Source: Centroberyx gerrardi (lineage: Eukaryota; Chordata; Actinopteri; Beryciformes; Berycidae). Taken from it: a stretch of 64,000 nucleotides of DNA. Location of the stretch: assembly GCF_048128805.1 (NCBI RefSeq), contig NC_136000.1:12172854-12236853 (forward strand), given 5' to 3'. Shown one piece after another: positions 1 to 37,300 of this stretch. The notes under the pieces are model-generated. The model saw nothing but the letters and a program-made list of their open reading frames with translations. It made no database searches and was not told where the DNA came from. Position numbers and translations under genes: made by a program. How positions within the stretch are numbered: the stretch's first letter is position 1; the number at the start of each line of letters is the position of its first letter.

Positions 1-3000
1 ACCTGGTCATCTACACCAGGTCTGTCAAATTTATCAGCTTCAGTCATTCTAAGGACAACCAGAACTTCTATGAGAACACGTCCATGGGAGAAAAGAAGGC
101 ACACAAGCTGGCCAAAGCCTCAGGTAAAGTGGACAATGGCTTTTATGGAGTTGAAATAGTGGTGCATAGCGTTTGTCTTCAATTGTAGGGAAGAGTATGG
201 ATTTAAAATGATCAAGAATGTGCATAATTAAATGTAAATACACAGAAAATATCATTTTGATGATTCAGATGATTTATAATCACATAGAGCCCAAAGGGAA
301 AGTGTCTGCAGATCCTTTTATGACTGGAAATGCAATGAGCTCCCGGGCCATAAAGCTCCATAATAGAGAAAGCATATTGAACATGACATATGCTACATAG
401 GGGAGTGCTATTTAAGGCAAAAAGAACATAACAGCAAAAGCTCAGAAATGTGTCTTGTACTCTCAATGTTGGGGCAGTGGAAAGAGCCCACGGAGGTTTG
501 AATCAAATGATAATCAGTTAAACTGTCATCACGCTGCTGTGTGGCAGTATATTGGAGAAACAGAGTGATGCAGAGAAATGAGCTCTGTTCCTGCTGCGGG
601 GAAACAACACTTTCCAGACACACAGCTATATTATGAGCTAGTTTGCTTGGGTGACAGGGACCAAGAACAATCTCAGCTACGCTCTAGCTATAAGAACCAT
701 ATATACACTTTCATCCCCAACCTCTGTAGGGAAATGACACTCTCCAGACACAGCTATGGTATGATCACATGGAGACTGAAACACTGTGCTGATCCTTACA
801 GCCTATCTAGGATGAAGATAATTATGCAGCGACCAAAACCTGATCAGGACATAGTTTCACACACTGAACACTGCTTCAACTATTCTCTCTAGAAAAGTCT
901 CCCTTGTGGCTTCACAGAATACATTTCCATTAATATGCATTTGACATGAGGTTGAAATGACAATTTGATTTGCATATGTTTGAACTCTCATCCAAAAAAA
1001 AAAAAAAAACAAGAACCAAGAATTATATCTGTGATGTCATGAACCTGGACCTGTTCCTCTGACATTGGAAATGGGAAACTGACATTGCTATAACTGTTAC
1101 TGTTAACCCTGGATGCTGTCACTGCATCAGTGAAGGTGGTCTCCAAATCACTGTCAGTGGTGCAGCTACAGGGTCCCTCTCTTGATGACGCCATGAAGAG
1201 CCTCTTGGCTCTCTTGCTTTTAGCTTTTAGCTTTAGGACGTCCCAGGATGTTCCCAAGTCAGAAATTCAGACTGAAATGTCCAGGATCATAAGGATAACA
1301 TTTGTGAATTCTGCATCAGTGATTTTCTCATTAAATAGTGTGTGTTAGAGGAGACATTTGATCACTCATTGCTGTGTGTCCTCTGTCCCAGGCCCAGAGT
1401 TTGTTCAACATAACCAGAGGTTCCTCAGCAGGATTTACCCAGCAGGCTCCAGGACGTCCTCCTCCAACTACAACCCGCAGGAGTTCTGGAACGTTGGCTC
1501 ACAGCTAGGTGGGTAGGAGGGAGCATGTGCCTACATGCATGTAGGCACATACACATCTTAGCAAGCAATGTTGTTTTTCACATTTTAGTTTGAACTTTTC
1601 CAAATGCTTTGTTGTTAACTGTGTTTCTTTTTTGGATGAGATGAAAACCCTGATCATTTTAACTGCTTAAGGACATGGAGATAAATCTCCTTTGTGTCAG
1701 CGTTTTTGACAGGAATCCAAAAGTTGTCAACACATACTGAACAACCACACTCCATTGTAAGCCTTTGAAATGGAAGGAAATACATTCAAGAAACTTGGAT
1801 TGTGAAACTTCAAAGGGAACAGCAAGGCTGAGTGTCCTGTCGATTAGCACTGAAAAGAACATTTCATTCCACTCCGCAGTCTGAACCACCTCATCTGTGT
1901 TTTCCTGGGAGCAAGTCCTCTCCTGTCCCTTATCACACCCTTTCTAAATCGATTTGCACCCTCCTGGATGGATTTTTTTTTTTTGTATAAACTAAAGCCT
2001 TGTCTGGGTCAGAGCTTAGCTTTTTATATTCAGTAATAATTTCCTTGGAGTCAAGCCTGAGTAGTAGGCTTTACTCTATATCACATGCTGGTGTGTGTCT
2101 GTTTTTGTGCGTGTGTGAGTGTGCAAGTATGCAAGTGTGTCTGTGTGTCTGATTACCACATAATACAGTCATAACCAGTTTGCAAGGACCCAGAGAAATC
2201 CCAGCTACGCTTCAAAGAACCATATATACACTTGATTTCCTCAAGCCCTCAGCCATTCAAGATTGCCCACGGACTTAAAGTCACAACCTGACAAATCTAA
2301 TCTGTCTGGTCCCATCTCGGCCAGTGTTCCTGTCAGTCCACCTGTCTTTACACAGCCTCCTCCTACCTCTCCATCTCTTCAGTCAGTCAGGCACTGATTT
2401 TAACGCGGACTGATTTCCCCGCTGATCAGTGAGCAGACTGTCTCTCCGTGCTTCAGTGGCAGCTGTGCCGATGGAGATCGGCACTGCTCACAGCTCCAGG
2501 AGACCGCAGTACAAAGAAGCCTGGATGGATCAATTAGAGTACAGTTAGATGAGCAGAACATTCACCGGGGCCCCTGTGACACACACAGAGGAAGAGTATA
2601 TGAAAGAATGCAGAAAGATGCAGAGCAATGTGTTGGTACAGGAAGTTGGAGTCACAATAGTAGCAGGTGTTTCTTTGCAAAAACCAGGACTGATCTGTGG
2701 TATTCCAGACTCACCGGCGATGCCAAATCCAGCCTGGGAGAGCACATAATTCAAATCTATCGGCAGGATCACATCTGCTGCTTTCTTTATCCTCCAATCT
2801 ATTCATAGTGCAAACGCGTATACACTGAAGACTATGCAGTACACACACCAAGCCATAGCTTTGCACCATAGCAAAGGCCATTGAAGATGCTTTCATTGCA
2901 CAGTGTGTGATTTGGAATGCTTCCCTCGTGAATTAGAATGCCTCCCTGATGCAATGTACGCTATTGTTGCAGAAACATTTTGAGTCATTGTATAGTGTAG

Positions 3001-3666
3001 CTCCCTCCTGCAAAATGAACAGGAGCATGAAAAATGGAAGGTATCAGTGGAATGCAGCAAAATCAATTCATGGCGCTTGTTTTTATTTTAAAAGGCTTCA
3101 GGCATTTTCAATTTTGTTTCTATCAAATCCTTGCCTCTGCTCTGTGGCACCTCTTTTTCATTGTTGCAAGATTGTATTGTGATGTTTTGCAGTGGCACTC
3201 AACTTCCAGTCTGTGGGCTTGCCTATGGACCTTAACAACGGGTGTTTCCAGGACAATGGTGGCTGTGGGTACATCCTGAAGCCAGCGGTGCTCAGGTCCA
3301 GTCAGAGGAGCTTTGATCCCAACTGCTGCCAGCACAGCCTCAGGCCCACACACCTGCTGCTCAAGGTACTGCGCTGGATTGCTGAACTCTCAATAATCCA
3401 CTCTGGGTGGATTTATGGATTAAGGTGTCATGTTACAGGACGTGTGTGTGTGTGTGTATCTGTGTGCGAGTGTGTGCTTTATGGCTTTGTGTGCACGTAT
3501 GTTTGTGACCATGCCTCCCAATCTAGGGCACTGTGTAGTTGAGCTCATCTTACTCTTTGCCTCCAGATAAGTGCTTTCCTGCTGGATTCTGTGAACCAAC
3601 AATGATGTAAAACTCCCTGAGAGTGTTTCCGTTTAATTCGATTATCTCCCACAGAAAGTGAGGGGG

Positions 3667-3710
<44 letters not shown>

Positions 3711-6700
3711 GGAGAGAAAAAGAGATAGAGGGGGGTTGATGCAATGCAATTAGACCTGGGGTCTAATGGATATACCTCCTCTCTTCCATATTTCAGAAAA
3801 ATCTGTGCTTTGGGGGCAAGTAATATCAGCACTTGTATAGCATCCCAGAGACATGACAAATGGCAAGGCTGCAGAGAGCATGGTCACATCAGGAGTCCAC
3901 TTTTTAGAACTGTAATACAACCCTCTATGATCTCTTTAGTAGAGCCATAAGTAATACTGTCACACACTAACTCTTATCAGCCCAATTAGAGAGATACAGC
4001 AATTTGTTCTTTGTGTGTGTAACATGCCAATGAGACTCAGAGATATCTGGGGCTTTGTACAGCAAAGACAATGTGTGGAATTGCCTGGGAACGCATGGGA
4101 CTGATAGAGACTTAATGGAGGGATGCTTGGGCAAGTCTTATTTATTGTAGTGGTATCACTCTTATGAATAGATATGAACCATAGTGTAAACCCTCTTTAT
4201 CAACAGTTAGTTGAGGATAATACTACCTGCATTACCAGATCTTATGCATCTGAGTGTATTTATATTTTTCTACCTGATCCAGGACTATTTCCTCAGCTGA
4301 CCTGGCTCATTATGCCGACTATAAATGTAACTATTTACACCTTTGATAAGCGTTATCTGTGCATTCACATCATGCCATCTGGGGCTTTAAATACTGCCCC
4401 AATTATCTGGGTTACTGTCATCATTCACAGCCATTTCCAAAAGGGAAGGAGAGAGAAAACTACACATAACTCTGGATAGGCCGTGCTGCGTAAAACGCTA
4501 CTCTAGAGAGATACACCTCCATTAGCTTGCTTTATATGGCGACAAAATGTATCAGTGGCAAAAAAGGATAAATGACTCCCTTACCCGTGGTAGAAAAAAA
4601 AATCTGGATCAGATAACATTTCATGAGAATGTATAGACTCTCAACAGTTAAATAAATTCACAAGTGAGATTGTCTACCAGTGGAATATGCACACACAATA
4701 TATCTTCCCAGCACTGCGCATGAAATATAAATGTGGTGCGTTCCATTTTGGGATGCCCAGGGAAAAAGCCCTACCTCTATTTATTCACGTCATCATCCAG
4801 TATTATTTGGGCTTTTTGATCACTTCAGGGAAAAGCCTGCAATCTTGACTCGACTCTCAACTCTGTTGGAATCATGAATAGCATTGAGCATTCGAACTTA
4901 GGTAGGCTCTGGTGTTCAATCATTAAATAGTAAATTATTCATCTGCTTCGGAAAACAATACTTCCCCTCGAGGCTTCATGAACCTATTTTGCATAAAACT
5001 GTCAACTAAGTGATGGTCTGTTTTTCTATAACAAATTCTCATGAATTGACAACTTGCAAACCACGCACTCATTCATTCACTATCTGTGCACTCAAAAGCA
5101 TGAAGGAACAGCACATCAGCATCGCAACTTTTAACGTGCATATTGTAGGCCATTCTGTTGCATTTTGGGCCGGACACTGTAAAGCTCCATCGGTGCCAAG
5201 CAGGGCATGTCCAGATAAGTGCATGCAGGTTTGTCTTTGATCAGGGCTGGGGAAGGGGAGGCTCAGTGTGAGGGGACTGCAGATAAGGCTGCCTCTCTCC
5301 AGACTAGTGTAATTACAGCCCTCCCTCTCTTCTCCTCTCCTCTCCTCTCCTCTCCTCTCCTCTCCTCTCCACACACCAATTTTGTGTGTGTGTGTGTGTT
5401 TTTTTTTGATGTGTGTCTAAAGGTGATCAGTGGATCCAACCTTCCTGTCCCAAGGAGTGGCAAAGCTCTGGACCCCTTTGTCAGAGTGGAGATCCAGGGG
5501 GTTGTATCTGACTCCCGCAGAAGAAACACAGACACTGTCAAAAACAACTGTAAGTATTGTACTACAAACTCACCTGTACACTCTGAGACTGTAAACTGAG
5601 TGCAAGGACACAGGAATACACTGTATAGCAGGAACCACAACACAAAAATGTTTCAAAATGAAGCTACTCACGAGGACAAGATCACAGACGACAAATCAGA
5701 GGAAATTATATTAAACAAAACATATTGATGAGAGGGTGCTGCGTCTAACAATAGTTCAAACCAAGATGCATCAATACTCACATGAACTATACTCGGACTA
5801 GTGTATGAATCACTGACAGTCAGCCTTTTCTGTGATGCAGGAACAGTCTCCACTCCAGAGGATGAAAGCCTTGTATTTTCAAAAAGTCCACTTTCCAGAA
5901 ATTAAGAATAACAGCCTTATTTTCAGTTTGCTTTCATTTTTGAGACTTTATCATGGCCCTTGGGCCATGATACTTGCTCTACCTACAGAGGACCATGTAA
6001 ACCTTCATTTCAAGTAAAAACATGAAAATCACCAAAACTGGATTCCAAAGAGTTTTTTTTTTTTTTCTGTGACAGCAGTATTTTGCGGTTTCTGTAAGGT
6101 TTTTTCCCTCCTTTTGAATCCAATTCCCGGATGGCTGCTGTTGGGGTTCTGAGGTGAAATGTGCTGATGAGCCTCTTGAAAACGTAGAAGTGGATTGCCT
6201 TTGAAGAGGAATCTGCCATGCACCACTGCTATGACTGGAAACATAGAGTACTGGAGTAGAGAGTCACTGCACTGCACACGGGATTTAGTGCTACAGTGTA
6301 ATTATGCATCACTAAGATCCTCATACCTACACAGATTTAGTGTGTGTCCAAATGTGTCACCTTTACCATATCACCAAATGTGCAAGAACAGCTTTACACA
6401 CATCCAATTACAATGCATCTCAGTCATGATGACAAAGCCCTTGATTTTGTTTATGGTTGTTTAGAAGGATAATGCCTGAAAATGCCTCATTCAATCTTAA
6501 TTTGCTATGAACCGCCCTTAGCCGTCATCAGACTTTCACCCAAGTGTGAAAGCTGTCCCTCTGCAGCGTAATTGCTTTTGCTGAGGTCTTTTCATGGAGG
6601 TTTCGACAGACTTATCCTATTTCAGCTGGTGTTCACCCCTGATCATATGTCGCCTTCCATTTGGAGTTGGCGTTTTCAAAGCTATAGCAAACATGGAAAT

Positions 6701-8055
6701 GAACTTGTGAACAAAACATGTGTCAGATGATTTAGAGTGGATTCAGATACGAGGTTGGCGGGACAAGGCTGTATTGCTGCTCAGTGAGATGAGACAAAGA
6801 GGGAGGGAGACAGAGAGACAGAGAGAGAAATCTGGGAGGGTGCAGACTGCTTATGCATGGGCATAAATCATAAAATCATTTCACACTAGGAAACAGATAA
6901 GGTCACTGGTGAATACAAATGAATGTAGATGTAGCAGAAAACTTGGATGGAGCAGAGGAACTTGAGCACATTGTTTTGAATCAGAAAGGGAGTTAGGAGT
7001 GAAGTACAGAGGACTCATTACTATTAATTAACTACATACACTCTCCTTTGTCATTGCAAAACAGCACCCAAACTATTTGTACTATTTCTAAATATTTCTA
7101 ACACTAAACCATTAATGAATAGGAAAAGGCAGGTAAAGAAAATGAATGAATGTATCATGGCAGGCTAATAATAGACCCTCACCTCTGAAGTGTTTCTGGT
7201 GATGGTAACTGTACTCCTGTGTCCTCTGCTGTGAAGGCCACTTGACTTCAGAGCACCTTGGAGAGCTGAGGCTGTGGTACTTTAAGTGTCTGACGGACTA
7301 ATCAGTGACATCTTTAAAATCATCTTTAACATCTTTAAAATCACTTCTCAAAGCATATTTTTACAGATAGGCTTTAATATAACTTTTGTCTACTGATGCT
7401 TTAGGTTTTAAACATATGTAACCTTGTTTTGAATCCATACCTGGCATTTATATTACTCATCTTATTGCTGTTTTTTTAATGTGTTATTTATCATTTGTAA
7501 CCCTGTTCTGAAAAGAGAGTTTATTGTTATTAATATTATTATTTTTACAGCTCTGAGTCCTCGCTGGGATGCTGACATGAATTTCAGCATCAGTGTCCCT
7601 GAGCTCTGCCTCATCCGCTTCTCTGTTCGAGACCAGACCGGCCTTCTCAGCAGTGAGTTTGTGGGCCAGTACACCCTGCCCTTCACCAGCATGAAGAAAG
7701 GTGAGACACAGAGGCGGGGAGAGTGAGAAGGGGGTCGGGTGTGAGACGGAGAGCTAAATTACATCAGGCGACATTGCGTGACCATTACTGTATTTCCCCA
7801 TATTCACTGTGTCAGCATTACCTATGATTGGTCTCTGCTTGGTGCGGGTGAGTTTATGTGCAAATGCCTCTGTGCACGTTTGTGTGATGCTCATATCACA
7901 GCTACTGCACACGTTTTAGTGTGTGTGTACCTGCAGTTTTACGAGAACCCCCCTCCCCTCTCCACCCCCCAGGTTACCGCTGGGTGCCCCTCCTGTCCCG
8001 AGACGGATCCAGCCTGGACCCAGCCTCCCTCTTCATCTTTGTGTGGTATTCCTAA
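1..8055 (+). CDS. plcz1: Phospholipase C zeta, 3' part (partial, runs off the left edge)
   Basis: PI-specific phospholipase C cleaves PIP2 to IP3 and diacylglycerol; the zeta form is the sperm egg-activation factor of mammals. Six exons join in phase: 1-123, 1392-1508, 3193-3365, 5423-5549, 7551-7700 and 7973-8055 (about 256 residues, stop TAA at 8053). The first two and a half exons encode the rest of the catalytic Y box: [14 protein letters not shown], then SRIYPAGSR with the Arg and Tyr that contact substrate phosphate in PLC-delta1, then NPQEFWNVG and [11 protein letters not shown]. The remainder is the C2 domain ([20 protein letters not shown]). The C-terminus [13 protein letters not shown] is the zeta-type ending; delta isoforms end differently. 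pik3c2g next door, as in mammals, supports zeta. The EF hands, X box and X-Y linker lie upstream of the window. A delta-type PLC is the alternative, judged less likely. Confidence 0.88.
3669..3708. repeat. (AG)n microsatellite
   Basis: A run of 40 bases of AG in the plcz1 intron between exons 3193-3365 and 5423-5549. Confidence 0.9.
3709..5330. other. plcz1 intron without further features
   Basis: No exon, RNA gene or clear mobile element was seen in this part of the intron. Confidence 0.6.
5331..5370. repeat. (TCTCC)8 pentanucleotide repeat
   Basis: Eight TCTCC units about 50 bases before the acceptor of the plcz1 exon at 5423, extending its pyrimidine tract. Confidence 0.9.
5550..7550. 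other. plcz1 intron
   Basis: Intron between the two halves of the C2 domain. It has a poly(T) run near 6053-6066 and no recognisable exon or element. Confidence 0.6.
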
Positions 8056-9567: not shown

Positions 9568-24295
<14,728 letters not shown>

Positions 24296-27931: not shown

Positions 27932-28058
27932 GAGAGTTATAGTTACAATAGTGAGGACTGGGGAGAGGCCTGTTAGCCATAGGCACTTACCTGAGTCTCC
28001 TAAAAATGACACAATGTATATATGATGATTAAACTATTTATTGATGTTAGGTTAATGA

Positions 28059-31094: not shown

Positions 31095-34000
31095 TCAGGC
31101 ACGCTGCCGCAGTGCCCGCCTCTTGCGGCTGTAGTAGTGGCGCAGGCCGGTCTGTCTGGCAAAGTTCATCATGTAGTTTTGTTTACGGGTGCTGTGGGGA
31201 TACAAAGATAGTGAGAGAGGGAGGGAAAGAAAGGGGTGTGACCATTAGTGATCAAGTAAAGGGCGCAAAAAAATTCCAGACGTCTCCATGCACGCACTCT
31301 CACCCATGCACGTACACACACACACGCACAGTTGCTCAAATGCAGCTCCCGTACTCTCTCGCATTCGGAGTTTCATGCAGGCATTTTCAGTCACGTTTCA
31401 GCCGTAACCTCAAACACTCAACAGCTGTATGAGTCTCATGGCTCAGAGAATGGGTGGCGCTACTCTACACAAGTGGAGTTCTTTACAGTACTGTACATAT
31501 GAGAGGCGGCTAACGGGTGAACATGGCGGTAGAACTACAGCTACATGTATCCAATGGCAGTACGAGACCAAATGTCACAGGACAAAGACACGGGACACAG
31601 AGTTTACAGACATACTACCACAGACGCTAGGGAGCTGGAGGTTGAATAACTCTGACCCTGCTCTATCAGAGTGTTTGAGGTCAGAGTTAAGAGTAACAGC
31701 CATCACATGGGAGAAAGGAAAAGAAGATAACAAAACAAAGGCATAAAAATGCGGGGTTGTGAGCAGAGAAGGAGTGATATTGAACTAAGAGACACAGAGA
31801 GAAGCTGCGGAAGATCGCTTTTGCTTAGCCTGTTCATTGCCTCTTCCATCCAGCAGGGCGGTGCCAGTGAGCCAGGAGTGCAGCCAGGGCAGGCAGGGGC
31901 CTCTGCGAAGCGGGGGGGTGGGGGTGGGGGGGGGGGGGGGGGTTCAGGGGTGGGGGGGGTGGGAGTGGGAGGGGGTAGGGGGTGGGAAGTGTGTGGTTGG
32001 TGATGGGTGGGGGTGTGAAGGCGGAAGTGTGAAGGCAGATGGGAGGGGCGCGACTGTTGAAGTGGAATGCGTGTGTGTGTGTGTGTGTGTTTTTCTGTCA
32101 GAGCGCAGGGGGCAGAGTGGAGGGAGCTCCTGGCTCATCGTCATGTTGTTGTCCGCAGACAGACAGCCATGAGTGGAGGAGGGATGGAGAGCTGGCGCAA
32201 CAGTCGATCCGTGAAGCCATGCAAGGAACTGGATGGAGGAGGTTAGTCAGATGAAACTCTCTCTCTGGCCAAATGTGTCAGCAGCAGGAATCAATGGCGC
32301 TAGATGCCTTGCATTGCAACTGATATTGGTGTGTGTGTGTGAATGAAAAAAAATGATGTTAAATGCTTGAATGAGATAAACGCTGGACCCATAAACAGTA
32401 GTCCTTTTCAAATAGAACCCTTGAGCTGTGTGTGTCAGCTTGTGTGCTGAATTAGTAGCTGGGTCAAAAACACTAGAGCGGTGTCTAGTAGAGGCAGCAG
32501 CAAGAACACAACAAACAGATATAGTGATGGATTACATCACACATATACACACAAACACAATACCATTGACATTTGTACAGTATGTGTAAGTTATTGCATT
32601 AAAAATAGAATATACCAAAACGTTATGTACTGAAAAATACAATTATTAACTACACATCAAAGCCATATTACAATCATTTATCCTCATCTGGTGACATTGT
32701 GTTGAATTAAGTTAACAAACCTACTTTTAGGAATGGACTGTTATTATTTCATGATTGGAAAAATAAAGTAGAATATTTGCCCCAAACTTTCATGATTTCA
32801 CCGTTTATTCTTTCCATCCACAACAGGTCATGAATATTTTTTTTTATATAATATATAATATATTTTTTATTTTGTTTTTCTACTTTGAGAGCTGTCTCTA
32901 AAGATGTGTTTCTGTGTGGATTGCTGTGTGCTGCTTCATTCTGTTAGCAGAGCCTCCACCTGGACACTGTGGGTGGCTGGCCTGCTTATTGGCCTGCCTG
33001 GGGCTAAAGTTAAGGTGAAGGCATGGAGATGATGGTGGTGATGATGAGGAGGGGAGGGAGGGGAGGGGAGGGGGTGCTGGGTGACAGTGAAAGTGAGGGA
33101 GGGGGTGTGCGGTGTGACAGGGAGAAGAAGGGTTGGGAGGAGGGGGGGGTCGGGGGGGGGGGGTCGGGGGGGTGGGCTGCATTCAGGAAGAGGCGGAGAA
33201 CTTACCTGACACTACAGCCATGCCAGAGGGAGCAGAATACAGAAGAGAGCAGAGGTTAGAGCGCGAGAGGGGAGGGGCAGGAGGAGGGGGCAGCTGTCTC
33301 GCAGAAAGGTCTGGGGGGGCAGGAACCCCGGCCTGGGGAGGCGGGGGGCCCAAAGCAGGGAGGAGGGAGGAGAGAGGAGAGGCAGAAAGATAGTCAAGAA
33401 GGTCAAGGAAGAAGCAAGTGAGAGACGGAGAGAGAGAATGAGGAAGAGAAAGAACATGAAAGAGGAGGAATGTAGAGCAGAGGAGAAGTCGGAAGCGGTG
33501 GAGAGCGAGCGAGAGACAGCGAAGGAATGTGACAAAGATGGAGGGACAGCGAGAGACAATCGCAGGTAGAGGTGAAGATAGAGAGAGCAAGATATACAGC
33601 AGTAGTCCATCCGTTGTATGCCAGAGAGGGAGGCAAAAAAAGAGAAAGAGGGAGAGGGGGATTTTGGAGCAAGGAAGGAAAGGAGAGAAGCAAGGAAGGA
33701 AGGAAAGGAGGAGGAGGAGGAGGATGAAGTAAGTGGTTGTCAATGGTAGGACACAATGCAGCACAAGCAGAGGAGTGAATATGACCACACGATCAAACAA
33801 GTCAGTGATATAAGCAGCAGGGAGGAAAGGCGTGTGAGGCAAAAGAAAAGATTGAACAGGAGTAGGAGTGAGAGGAGGAGTGTGTGAAGGAGTGGAGGAG
33901 TGGTGAACAGAGAGAAAGAAATAAACAAAAGAGCAAAGTGTGAGGATCACGGTCACTCTTTTCAGCAGACACTGTTGAAAACCGTGCGAGTGAGAGAGAG

Positions 34001-34331
34001 GGAGTGGGGCAGGTCACGGCCACACTAGACCAGGGACAGCTCAGGTTAGGCGTGTGTGTGTGTGTGTGTGTGGGTATGACTTAAGTCACTTTCAGGGACA
34101 CACACCAGACTTAAGACCAGTTGATTGGGGACGGCTTGTGCAATTGGGGACAAAAGCCGTGTCCCCAATTGGTAAAAAGCTGATTTTTGGGTCAGTGGTT
34201 AAGGTTAGGTTAAGGTTAAGGTTAGGGTAAGGGTTAGGTTTAGGCAAGTAGTGGTTATGGTTAGGGTTAGGGTAAGTCTCCAGGAAATGAATGTAAGTCT
34301 ATGTAAATACCCCAAAAGTGACTTAAGTAAG

Positions 34332-34374
<43 letters not shown>

Positions 34375-37300
34375 AACTTGACACATCACTCTATATCGAT
34401 TGTACAAGTGTTAGAGTGCATTACATGACTGTATGTAGCATTTGAAATGCATTGGGTACAAGCCTGAATGAACAATTAGCACCCACATAATGAGGGAACA
34501 TTGCTCTGCTACCCACAGCAACATGCAGAAAATGCATTCAAAACGCTTTATGATATTGCCATGTAAAGAATATGTAAGAATATGTAAGTGTAGACTTTTT
34601 TACATGATATCTTCGGTGCCCTGCAGAAACTTTGCATCTCCAATTTTGGCATTTTTTTTTTTAACTAAAAGTTGGAATTGTCTTCAACTTGAAGAAAATG
34701 TTGCATGATCCTTGGTCCCATGCTAAAACACTAATAAAAATGCACAAAAAATAAATACATATGGGCATCAATGGGATAATCAACTAGATTTTTTTTCTAT
34801 TCTCGAAAAGTTGTGTTTTTGGGAGATACGTTTCTACAAGACACTGAAAACGTGGCAGTTTGACAACAAAGTTGATCTGCCGTACACAGAGCAGCCATCC
34901 ATAGATAGAACCCTTTACAGCAAAGCACGCTGCAGTCTTTGTTTCTGCTCTACTTGCCTGACACCAAAAGCTGTAATTAGCATATGAAAACGACTCTTGC
35001 ACGGGTATTAACCTGACTGCTGAGAGCTTTGTTCCAGGCATGTAGGTGTGCATAATACCCATGTTGTGTATCTGTGCGTTTGTGTGGAGGAGAGGGGACC
35101 ATTTCTGAGGCAGAGGCAAAGGCAAGGGCAGACTGGGTCTCTGTTGGGGGGGCCAGGGGCCGACTGGGGATTGGGTACTCACAGAACTACTTCCACGTGG
35201 TCCAACGCCCACTGGTCATGTCCTGCGCCGTCGTGGCGTGGCTGCCACCATCGCAGCATCACCCCTTTAACCCTCGCCTCTCTGGAGACACCATGGGAGA
35301 CATTGTAGGGTCAAAGAGGTCAATAAACGAGTTTGCAACGGTTTCACACCATTCCAATTGTCTTTACTGTATTGGCCTAAAATTTTATAACCAGGGTAAA
35401 ATACTTAATAACATAGTGTTGCACTAAGTGTGTGTGTGTGCCTGTGTCTGTCTGCCTGTACGCCTCTCTATATGTCACTCACAGTGGGATGTTGTAGGAG
35501 ACTCTCTGGGCCTTGATGAAGTCTTTGGGCTGGTGCTGGGCGATGACATGCCAGCTGACCCCGTTGTTGACGCTGTACTGCAGCAGCACGGCCCGGTCCA
35601 CCGTGTTGGCCTGGTCCAGAGCTATGTTACAGCTGTCTGTCTGCGACACGCTGCCGATCTGCAGCACAAACATGATCTTGCTGTGGGGGGACAGATAGAG
35701 AGGGAGGGAAGAGGGAGAAAGTTAGAGAAATCAAAGACGATGATATTAGACTACATCTACGTTTAGCTCTCTATCTGTTGTAGCTGTGGGTTAAGAAGCA
35801 ACGACAGAGGTGTAGGCTATGTGTACATAATTAGTTTATATGTTTTGGTAGTACCTGTACCTGGCTCTGGTGAGGTCCAGGGGTTTGGTAACAGCCTGCC
35901 TCATCTTACAGCCGTTAAAGTAGAGTGAGTCTCCGTGGGCGTGGGGTGACAGCTGCCCACACCCACTGCCCACTCCGCCACCCTGGATCAGCTGCCAGCT
36001 CTCCTGAGACACGCTGCCCGACTCAAAGTTGTCCTTAATGGAGCTGGGCAGGTCACTGCTGGACAGGGAGCAGTCGTCACCTGTTGAGGTGTGAGGAGAG
36101 AGAAGAGTAAGAAAGGAGGCAGAGGGAAGGTGATGAACTGCTGACTGTGGGGTTGACATCATTTGTAAAGTAAAAGCATACATAAGATAAGAACTTTTTG
36201 GCCAACTTTGAGTGTCCAAGACGTTTCTTCAGAATTGTTGTTTTAATCACATAGGAACATTTATTTTTTACCATGTCTCTCCATTCTCCACAAAATTACC
36301 CTTTGTAGTGTATCACTTCACTTCACCATAATAACTTGAATAACTCCACCTAACACATCTCAGCTGAACAGGTTAAATGATAAAGAATGGTGTTTGTTTC
36401 TATGAGTTTGAATATAATATGTTGTTTGTGGCCCACCATGGTGCCCCTCGTCACAGATGCAGACCACTCCACTGGTACAGTAGCCATGGCCGCTGCAGAG
36501 TCCTGGGCAGGCCTCTCCTATGTAGACATGGTCCACGCCCCAGCCGTGACGCTCCCCTGTCCCCTCCTTTTGGATCCAGCGGAACTGGGTGGCCCTGGAA
36601 ATATAAATAACAAATCACAAGATGTTTACAGAACTGACAGCTTGCAATCGAGAGACCAGCAGCACACTATTCTGCCATTAAATACATGTAAATATAAAAA
36701 GGGCCAAAGGGTGACCAACGCTAAGTCATGATATTTTCCACTGCTAACCAGGGACAAAAGTAAAATCTGCGTGCTCCTACCCTGAGGAGACGTGGTCTGG
36801 CAGCTGGACGGTGACCCTGGTCCATGTGGAGCTGTTGACTGGGCTGTAGATGGTGGACTCATGGAACTGGAAGGGAGAGCAGCCCACGTTGTTGACTGAG
36901 GAGGGGAGGCACTCCGACTGAACCAGCTGCCACGAGTCAGACCTGGGGGAGGAGAGCGGGAGCTGAAAGCTGTTCATGTACAATGTGTTTCCCATGCATG
37001 AAAGACGCATCAAATAATCTTTAAAGGAAAAAAATCAACCCTCGGATACTCTTACACTCTTAGAACTTATCCCAGAAGCTATTTTGTGATGAACTGTTGT
37101 ATGACTTTCGACAACCCCTAGAGAAAAGGCGTGAAGCGTTAGGATGTTTTTATCTTTTTAGGAACATCTTTCATATAGGACCCCCATTTCTCTCACCTCG
37201 CATCCTTCCTGTACTGCAGCAGGACAGAATGGTGGTCTTCACAGGTGTCTGCCTCACACCCAACAACAATCTGCACCGCAGAGAAAGATATAAAGGACTG

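Follow-up and report, generated by a model that had tools for sequence, protein, structure and literature searches.

A six-nucleotide stretch on the minus strand of the analysed window, 64,000 nt of Centroberyx gerrardi DNA, is very probably the ortholog of the alternative reelin microexon known in human as exon 64. This assignment draws on its splice sites, its reading frame, the placement of Val-Ser as in human and an acceptor region of the eMIC type. The microexon is thus the counterpart of a known exon and not a novel one, since a 6-nt exon has been described in human and a neural reln microexon has been tested and deleted in zebrafish. By itself it opens no new mechanism; its interest lies in that a 6-base exon, the two residues it encodes and its regulatory layout are recognisable in raw genome sequence, and in the precise annotation of an exon that, as remarked in an earlier sequence-only reading of this DNA, gene predictors may miss. 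It also provides a natural comparison for asking what role Val-Ser plays beside the C-terminal region of reelin, two elements that nothing found in our literature search had joined. The coordinates are collected in Table 1.

Table 1. Position of the microexon, its splice signals and the neighbouring parts of the reelin gene, numbered from the first base of the window.
Feature	Position	Strand	Basis
6-nt microexon TGTCAG; inserts Val-Ser, codon phase equal before and after	33206..33211	-	letters, translation, 7lyu_A
Donor GTAAGT; with the exon end, CAG/GTAAGT	33200..33205	-	letters; one of five [AC]AG/GTRAGT donors on both strands of the window
Acceptor region: TAG, 80-nt AG-free zone, branch-like CTAAC, TGC, TCTC	33212..33295	-	letters, motif scan
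Upstream reelin exon, end of reelin repeat 8 (...DHVEVVL); start approximate, from the 7lyu_A alignment	35183..35280	-	translation, alignment
Upstream donor GTGAGT	35177..35182	-	letters; unspliced reading gives EVVL-stop
Last coding stretch: basic C-terminal region (31 residues) and stop	31095..31191	-	translation, 7lyu_A alignment
Host intron, 3,991 nt, divided by the microexon into 1,971 and 2,014 nt	31192..35182	-	letters

The identity of the host gene as reelin, proposed in the sequence-only reading, is borne out by several comparisons. The spliced 65-residue peptide aligns with the solved reelin chain 7lyu_A at 8.3e-33, ungapped and with Val-Ser included, the two being identical through a 15-residue stretch, and it also matches a 32-residue reelin chain, 8g21_A, at 1.6e-10; our literature search found nothing linking reelin with 7LYU or 8G21. 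The 2.4 kb with their end at 35183 contain four stretches that match 7lyu_A in the same order (whole-query E 2.9e-106), the last of them being the exon that ends at this position. A Pfam scan of whole frames, with X at stops, covered two of the three minus-strand frames of 50-64 kb and detected Reelin_subrepeat-B there; no Pfam family was assigned to any of three single ORFs close to the locus. The locus therefore codes for the final part of repeat 8 of reelin and for the basic C-terminal region, with an intron between 35183 and 31191 whose length agrees with the roughly 4 kb given earlier. The upstream exon closes at the boundary GTAGTTCT/GTGAGT, and the downstream exon opens at the boundary CCCCACAG/CACCCGT. 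When the 65-residue peptide was searched in prokaryote and viral contigs, 61 and 3 pattern matches respectively were obtained and none was confirmed by tblastn; as these collections comprise prokaryotes and viruses, no relative was expected there.

On re-reading, the hexamer proved exact in position and letters, with TAG before it and GTAAGT after it, and the first observation of a microexon at this place is confirmed. The donor described as perfect is indeed CAG/GTAAGT. Translation of the joined exons with and without the hexamer gives EVVL-VS-TRKQNY and EVVL-TRKQNY, both in frame, in agreement with the insertion L-V-S-T-R-K-Q that had been read by eye. The six bases thus lie between the repeat-8 exon and the exon of the C-terminal region, and 7lyu_A represents the inclusion form of reelin, with Val-Ser at the equivalent place.

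The optional, brain-type 6-base exon of human reelin invoked in the sequence-only reading finds support in the published work, as far as consulted. The human RELN microexon is kept in 83.3% of full-length prefrontal cortex transcripts and is absent in HepG2 (PMC3095646), and the same source cites Lambert de Rouvroit 1999 for its conservation across species. The identity of the two residues comes through a human microexon primer (PMC4850686, as seen in part) that ends GTCCTAGTAAG / GTCGTCCTAGTAAG; the end GTCGTCCTAGTAAG reads in frame as V-V-L-V followed by the first two bases of a Ser codon, which implies AGTAAG as the letters of the human exon. Compared with this primer-derived sequence, TGTCAG would differ at two bases, both at third codon positions and both silent (CTA and GTA in human, CTT and GTC here).

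A hexamer so short could also be a splice-site-like accident of a pyrimidine-rich intron, never used and found through the prior expectation of the reader. To this reading belong the looser patterns, which are not special. When the 3,991-nt intron was shuffled 1,000 times with its dinucleotides preserved, AG-N6-GT was as common as in the intron itself (9 observed, 8.3 expected as the shuffle mean), AG followed by any Val-Ser hexamer and GT arose in 31 shuffles, and YAG-N6-GTRAGT in 25, or in 2 when [AC]AG was placed ahead of the donor; a second YAG-N6-GTRAGT is present elsewhere on the minus strand. Similarly, the five [AC]AG/GTRAGT donors in the 64 kb (3 minus, 2 plus) have YAG within 30 nt before them in each case, at least one per donor and giving 7 possible micro-exons in all, so that the pairing of an AG with a nearby good donor means little by itself. 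Among these seven the longest AG-free zone is that of the reelin site. The full pattern, YAG with a Val-Ser hexamer and GTRAG, is more than chance: it was produced by none of the 1,000 shuffles and occurs once on both strands of the window, at the microexon. A chance origin was rejected on this shuffle result and appears extremely unlikely, all the more as the site stands in the very intron that houses the human reelin microexon, codes for the identical two residues and shows the eMIC layout at its acceptor. Separately, a 9-nt splice-framed candidate, GAGACTCAG, was seen at 27991-27999 on the minus strand, 3' of the reelin stop codon and with a good donor; it is probably due to chance.

The claim of a consensus acceptor was overstated. 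Positions -20 to -5 contain only 69% pyrimidine and are interrupted by GGCATGG, and by pyrimidine content, the sole measure used, the acceptor is weak. The T fraction is 0.31 at -20 to -5 and 0.43 at -50 to -21. Further upstream, the branch-site-like CTAAC has its A at -45, TGC occurs at -23, -40, -68 and -81 and again at -92, -110 and -146, and TCTC is found at -37 and -57. The motif layout that had been read as suiting SRRM4-type control, CTGC motifs and a pyrimidine tract, is present upstream of the exon.

In fly, exons dependent on eMIC lie behind long AG exclusion zones, with UGC close to the acceptor, UCUC-rich tracts of greater length and branch sites of the CUAAY type, and the mammalian targets share the fly code apart from its weak donor and its strong branch site downstream (PMC8797185, consulted in part); SRRM4-dependent microexons have weaker acceptor contexts (PMC10250204, likewise). 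The reelin site carries this cis code, namely a long AG-free zone, CUAAY, a CU-rich tract, UGC near the acceptor and, by pyrimidine content, a weak acceptor context. We scored four features at YAG sites, an AG-free zone of at least 70 nt, two or more TGC in 50 nt, two or more TCTC/CTCT in 60 nt and CTAAY at about -57 to -18, which were present singly at 45, 449, 370 and 103 of the 1,999 minus-strand sites. All four coincide at one of these 1,999, the microexon acceptor, and at one of the 2,328 plus-strand sites (25861), a result that is descriptive because the thresholds were chosen after the site was seen. An AG-free zone of 90 nt and CTAAY at -54 are also found at the ordinary acceptor of 31191, which has no TGC within 50 nt, so the AG-free zone and CTAAY are not diagnostic. 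TGCATG is absent from the 150 nt flanking the microexon on each side, and control by RBFOX was rejected on this ground.

Taken together with human and zebrafish work, from which skipping outside neurons and neuronal inclusion driven by Srrm3/4 are drawn, these elements suggest how the exon may be handled. In most tissues the weak acceptor, with its branch site at -45 and a pyrimidine tract set back from the AG, would be passed over and 35183 joined directly to 31191. In neurons, the exon would be defined by Srrm3/Srrm4 and helpers such as SRSF11 and RNPS1, which would use the strong donor and the UGC/UCUC elements; in neuronal reelin, Val-Ser would then separate repeat 8 from the basic C-terminal region. 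That the Srrm3/4 step operates in Centroberyx gerrardi seems likely to us; that Val-Ser alters how the C-terminal region is spaced or exposed is a guess.

Sharp neural inclusion, strong srrm3/4 regulation and conserved regulation in human were among the criteria by which 21 highly conserved microexons, that of zebrafish reln included, were selected (PMC12626424, consulted in part). We infer that the zebrafish reln exon is the counterpart of the exon described here; its length was not found in the main text of that paper, so far as consulted. Deletion lines were made; three microexons, reln not among them, were left out, and the other 18 showed no gross morphological abnormality. In the abstract, reln is absent from the genes named for neurite or social-behaviour defects.

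Two other readings bear on usage of the exon. It may be real and yet a decayed relic in this lineage, with recognisable sites and negligible inclusion, to which the low pyrimidine content of the acceptor would correspond; we hold this to be very unlikely, given the perfect donor, the solely silent differences from the inferred human exon, the presence of the branch-like site and of UGC/UCUC motifs, and the sharply neural inclusion of the zebrafish exon. Alternatively, a real microexon may have its tissue control independent of Srrm3/4, for instance through repression by PTBP1 alone, a reading that rivals the regulatory step only. In non-neural samples, many neural microexons are under repression by PTBP1 (PMC8797185), which the CU-rich tract would suit as well; the zebrafish exon, however, was picked for strong srrm3/4 regulation, and the two modes are not mutually exclusive, so that independence from Srrm3/4 appears unlikely and Srrm3/4-driven inclusion is retained as the probable mode.

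The same intron touches on a second choice at the 3' end of the gene. When translation is read without splicing through the upstream donor (35177-35190, minus strand), it gives EVVL and a stop at once, owing to the codon phase at this donor, so that intron retention or intronic polyadenylation would yield reelin cut exactly before the C-terminal region; reading through the microexon donor gives EVVL-V-R-stop. Reelin without this region is made by alternative polyadenylation and is a less potent inducer of Dab1 phosphorylation (PMC11808024, in part), and PMC3095646, in the part consulted, refers to Lambert de Rouvroit 1999 for an alternative polyadenylation by which the basic terminus is lost. 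The intron contains AATAAA at 32871 and 32809, some 335 and 400 nt beyond the microexon donor. As proof of an alternative 3' end these hexamers were rejected, about one being expected per 4 kb by chance (a rough estimate). Conceivably the microexon donor shields them by retaining U1 midway along the intron, and neuronal recognition would then both add Val-Ser and prevent loss of the C-terminal region; we regard this as decidedly improbable. If true, one switch would couple two known 3'-end isoform choices of reelin.

Other features of the window were recorded alongside. A repeat-like element at 34074-34333 in the host intron has 24-nt inverted ends, 83% complementary and 212 nt apart, which enclose a perfect hairpin of 12 nt and runs of telomere-like CCCTAA. 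With up to 3 mismatches allowed, a 21-base piece of the element has a single occurrence in the window. The element looks like a small non-autonomous transposon. A scan of one frame per strand for neighbouring genes indicated a phospholipase C at about 1,400-7,740 on the plus strand, closest to PLC-zeta and with Pfam support, and a class-II-like PI3-kinase at about 13,750-15,950 on the minus strand, with PI3K-C2 alpha as best solved match, Pfam PI3_PI4_kinase and a sub-threshold PI3Ka. The human genes PIK3C2G and PLCZ1 are neighbours on chromosome 12, away from RELN, so that the linkage here would differ.

The closest known systems are the reelin microexons of human and zebrafish. Human RELN exon 64 is of equal length and frame and likewise places Val-Ser before the C-terminal region, with two silent base differences if its letters are those implied by the primer. 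The zebrafish exon (VastDB EX0007444; PMC12626424, as consulted) is also one of a fish reelin and belongs to the 21 highly conserved neural microexons. Inclusion has been measured in brain for the human exon, and the zebrafish exon has been tested in RNA and deleted, whereas that of Centroberyx gerrardi is described here from its sequence. In human alternatively spliced micro-exons, T is poorer just upstream of the exon and richer beyond 20 nt (PMC4317164, in the part consulted), and the T distribution at the reelin site is alike. With neural microexons dependent on SRRM3/4 (eMIC), the site shares the AG-free zone, CUAAY, the CU-rich tract, UGC near the acceptor and a strong donor.
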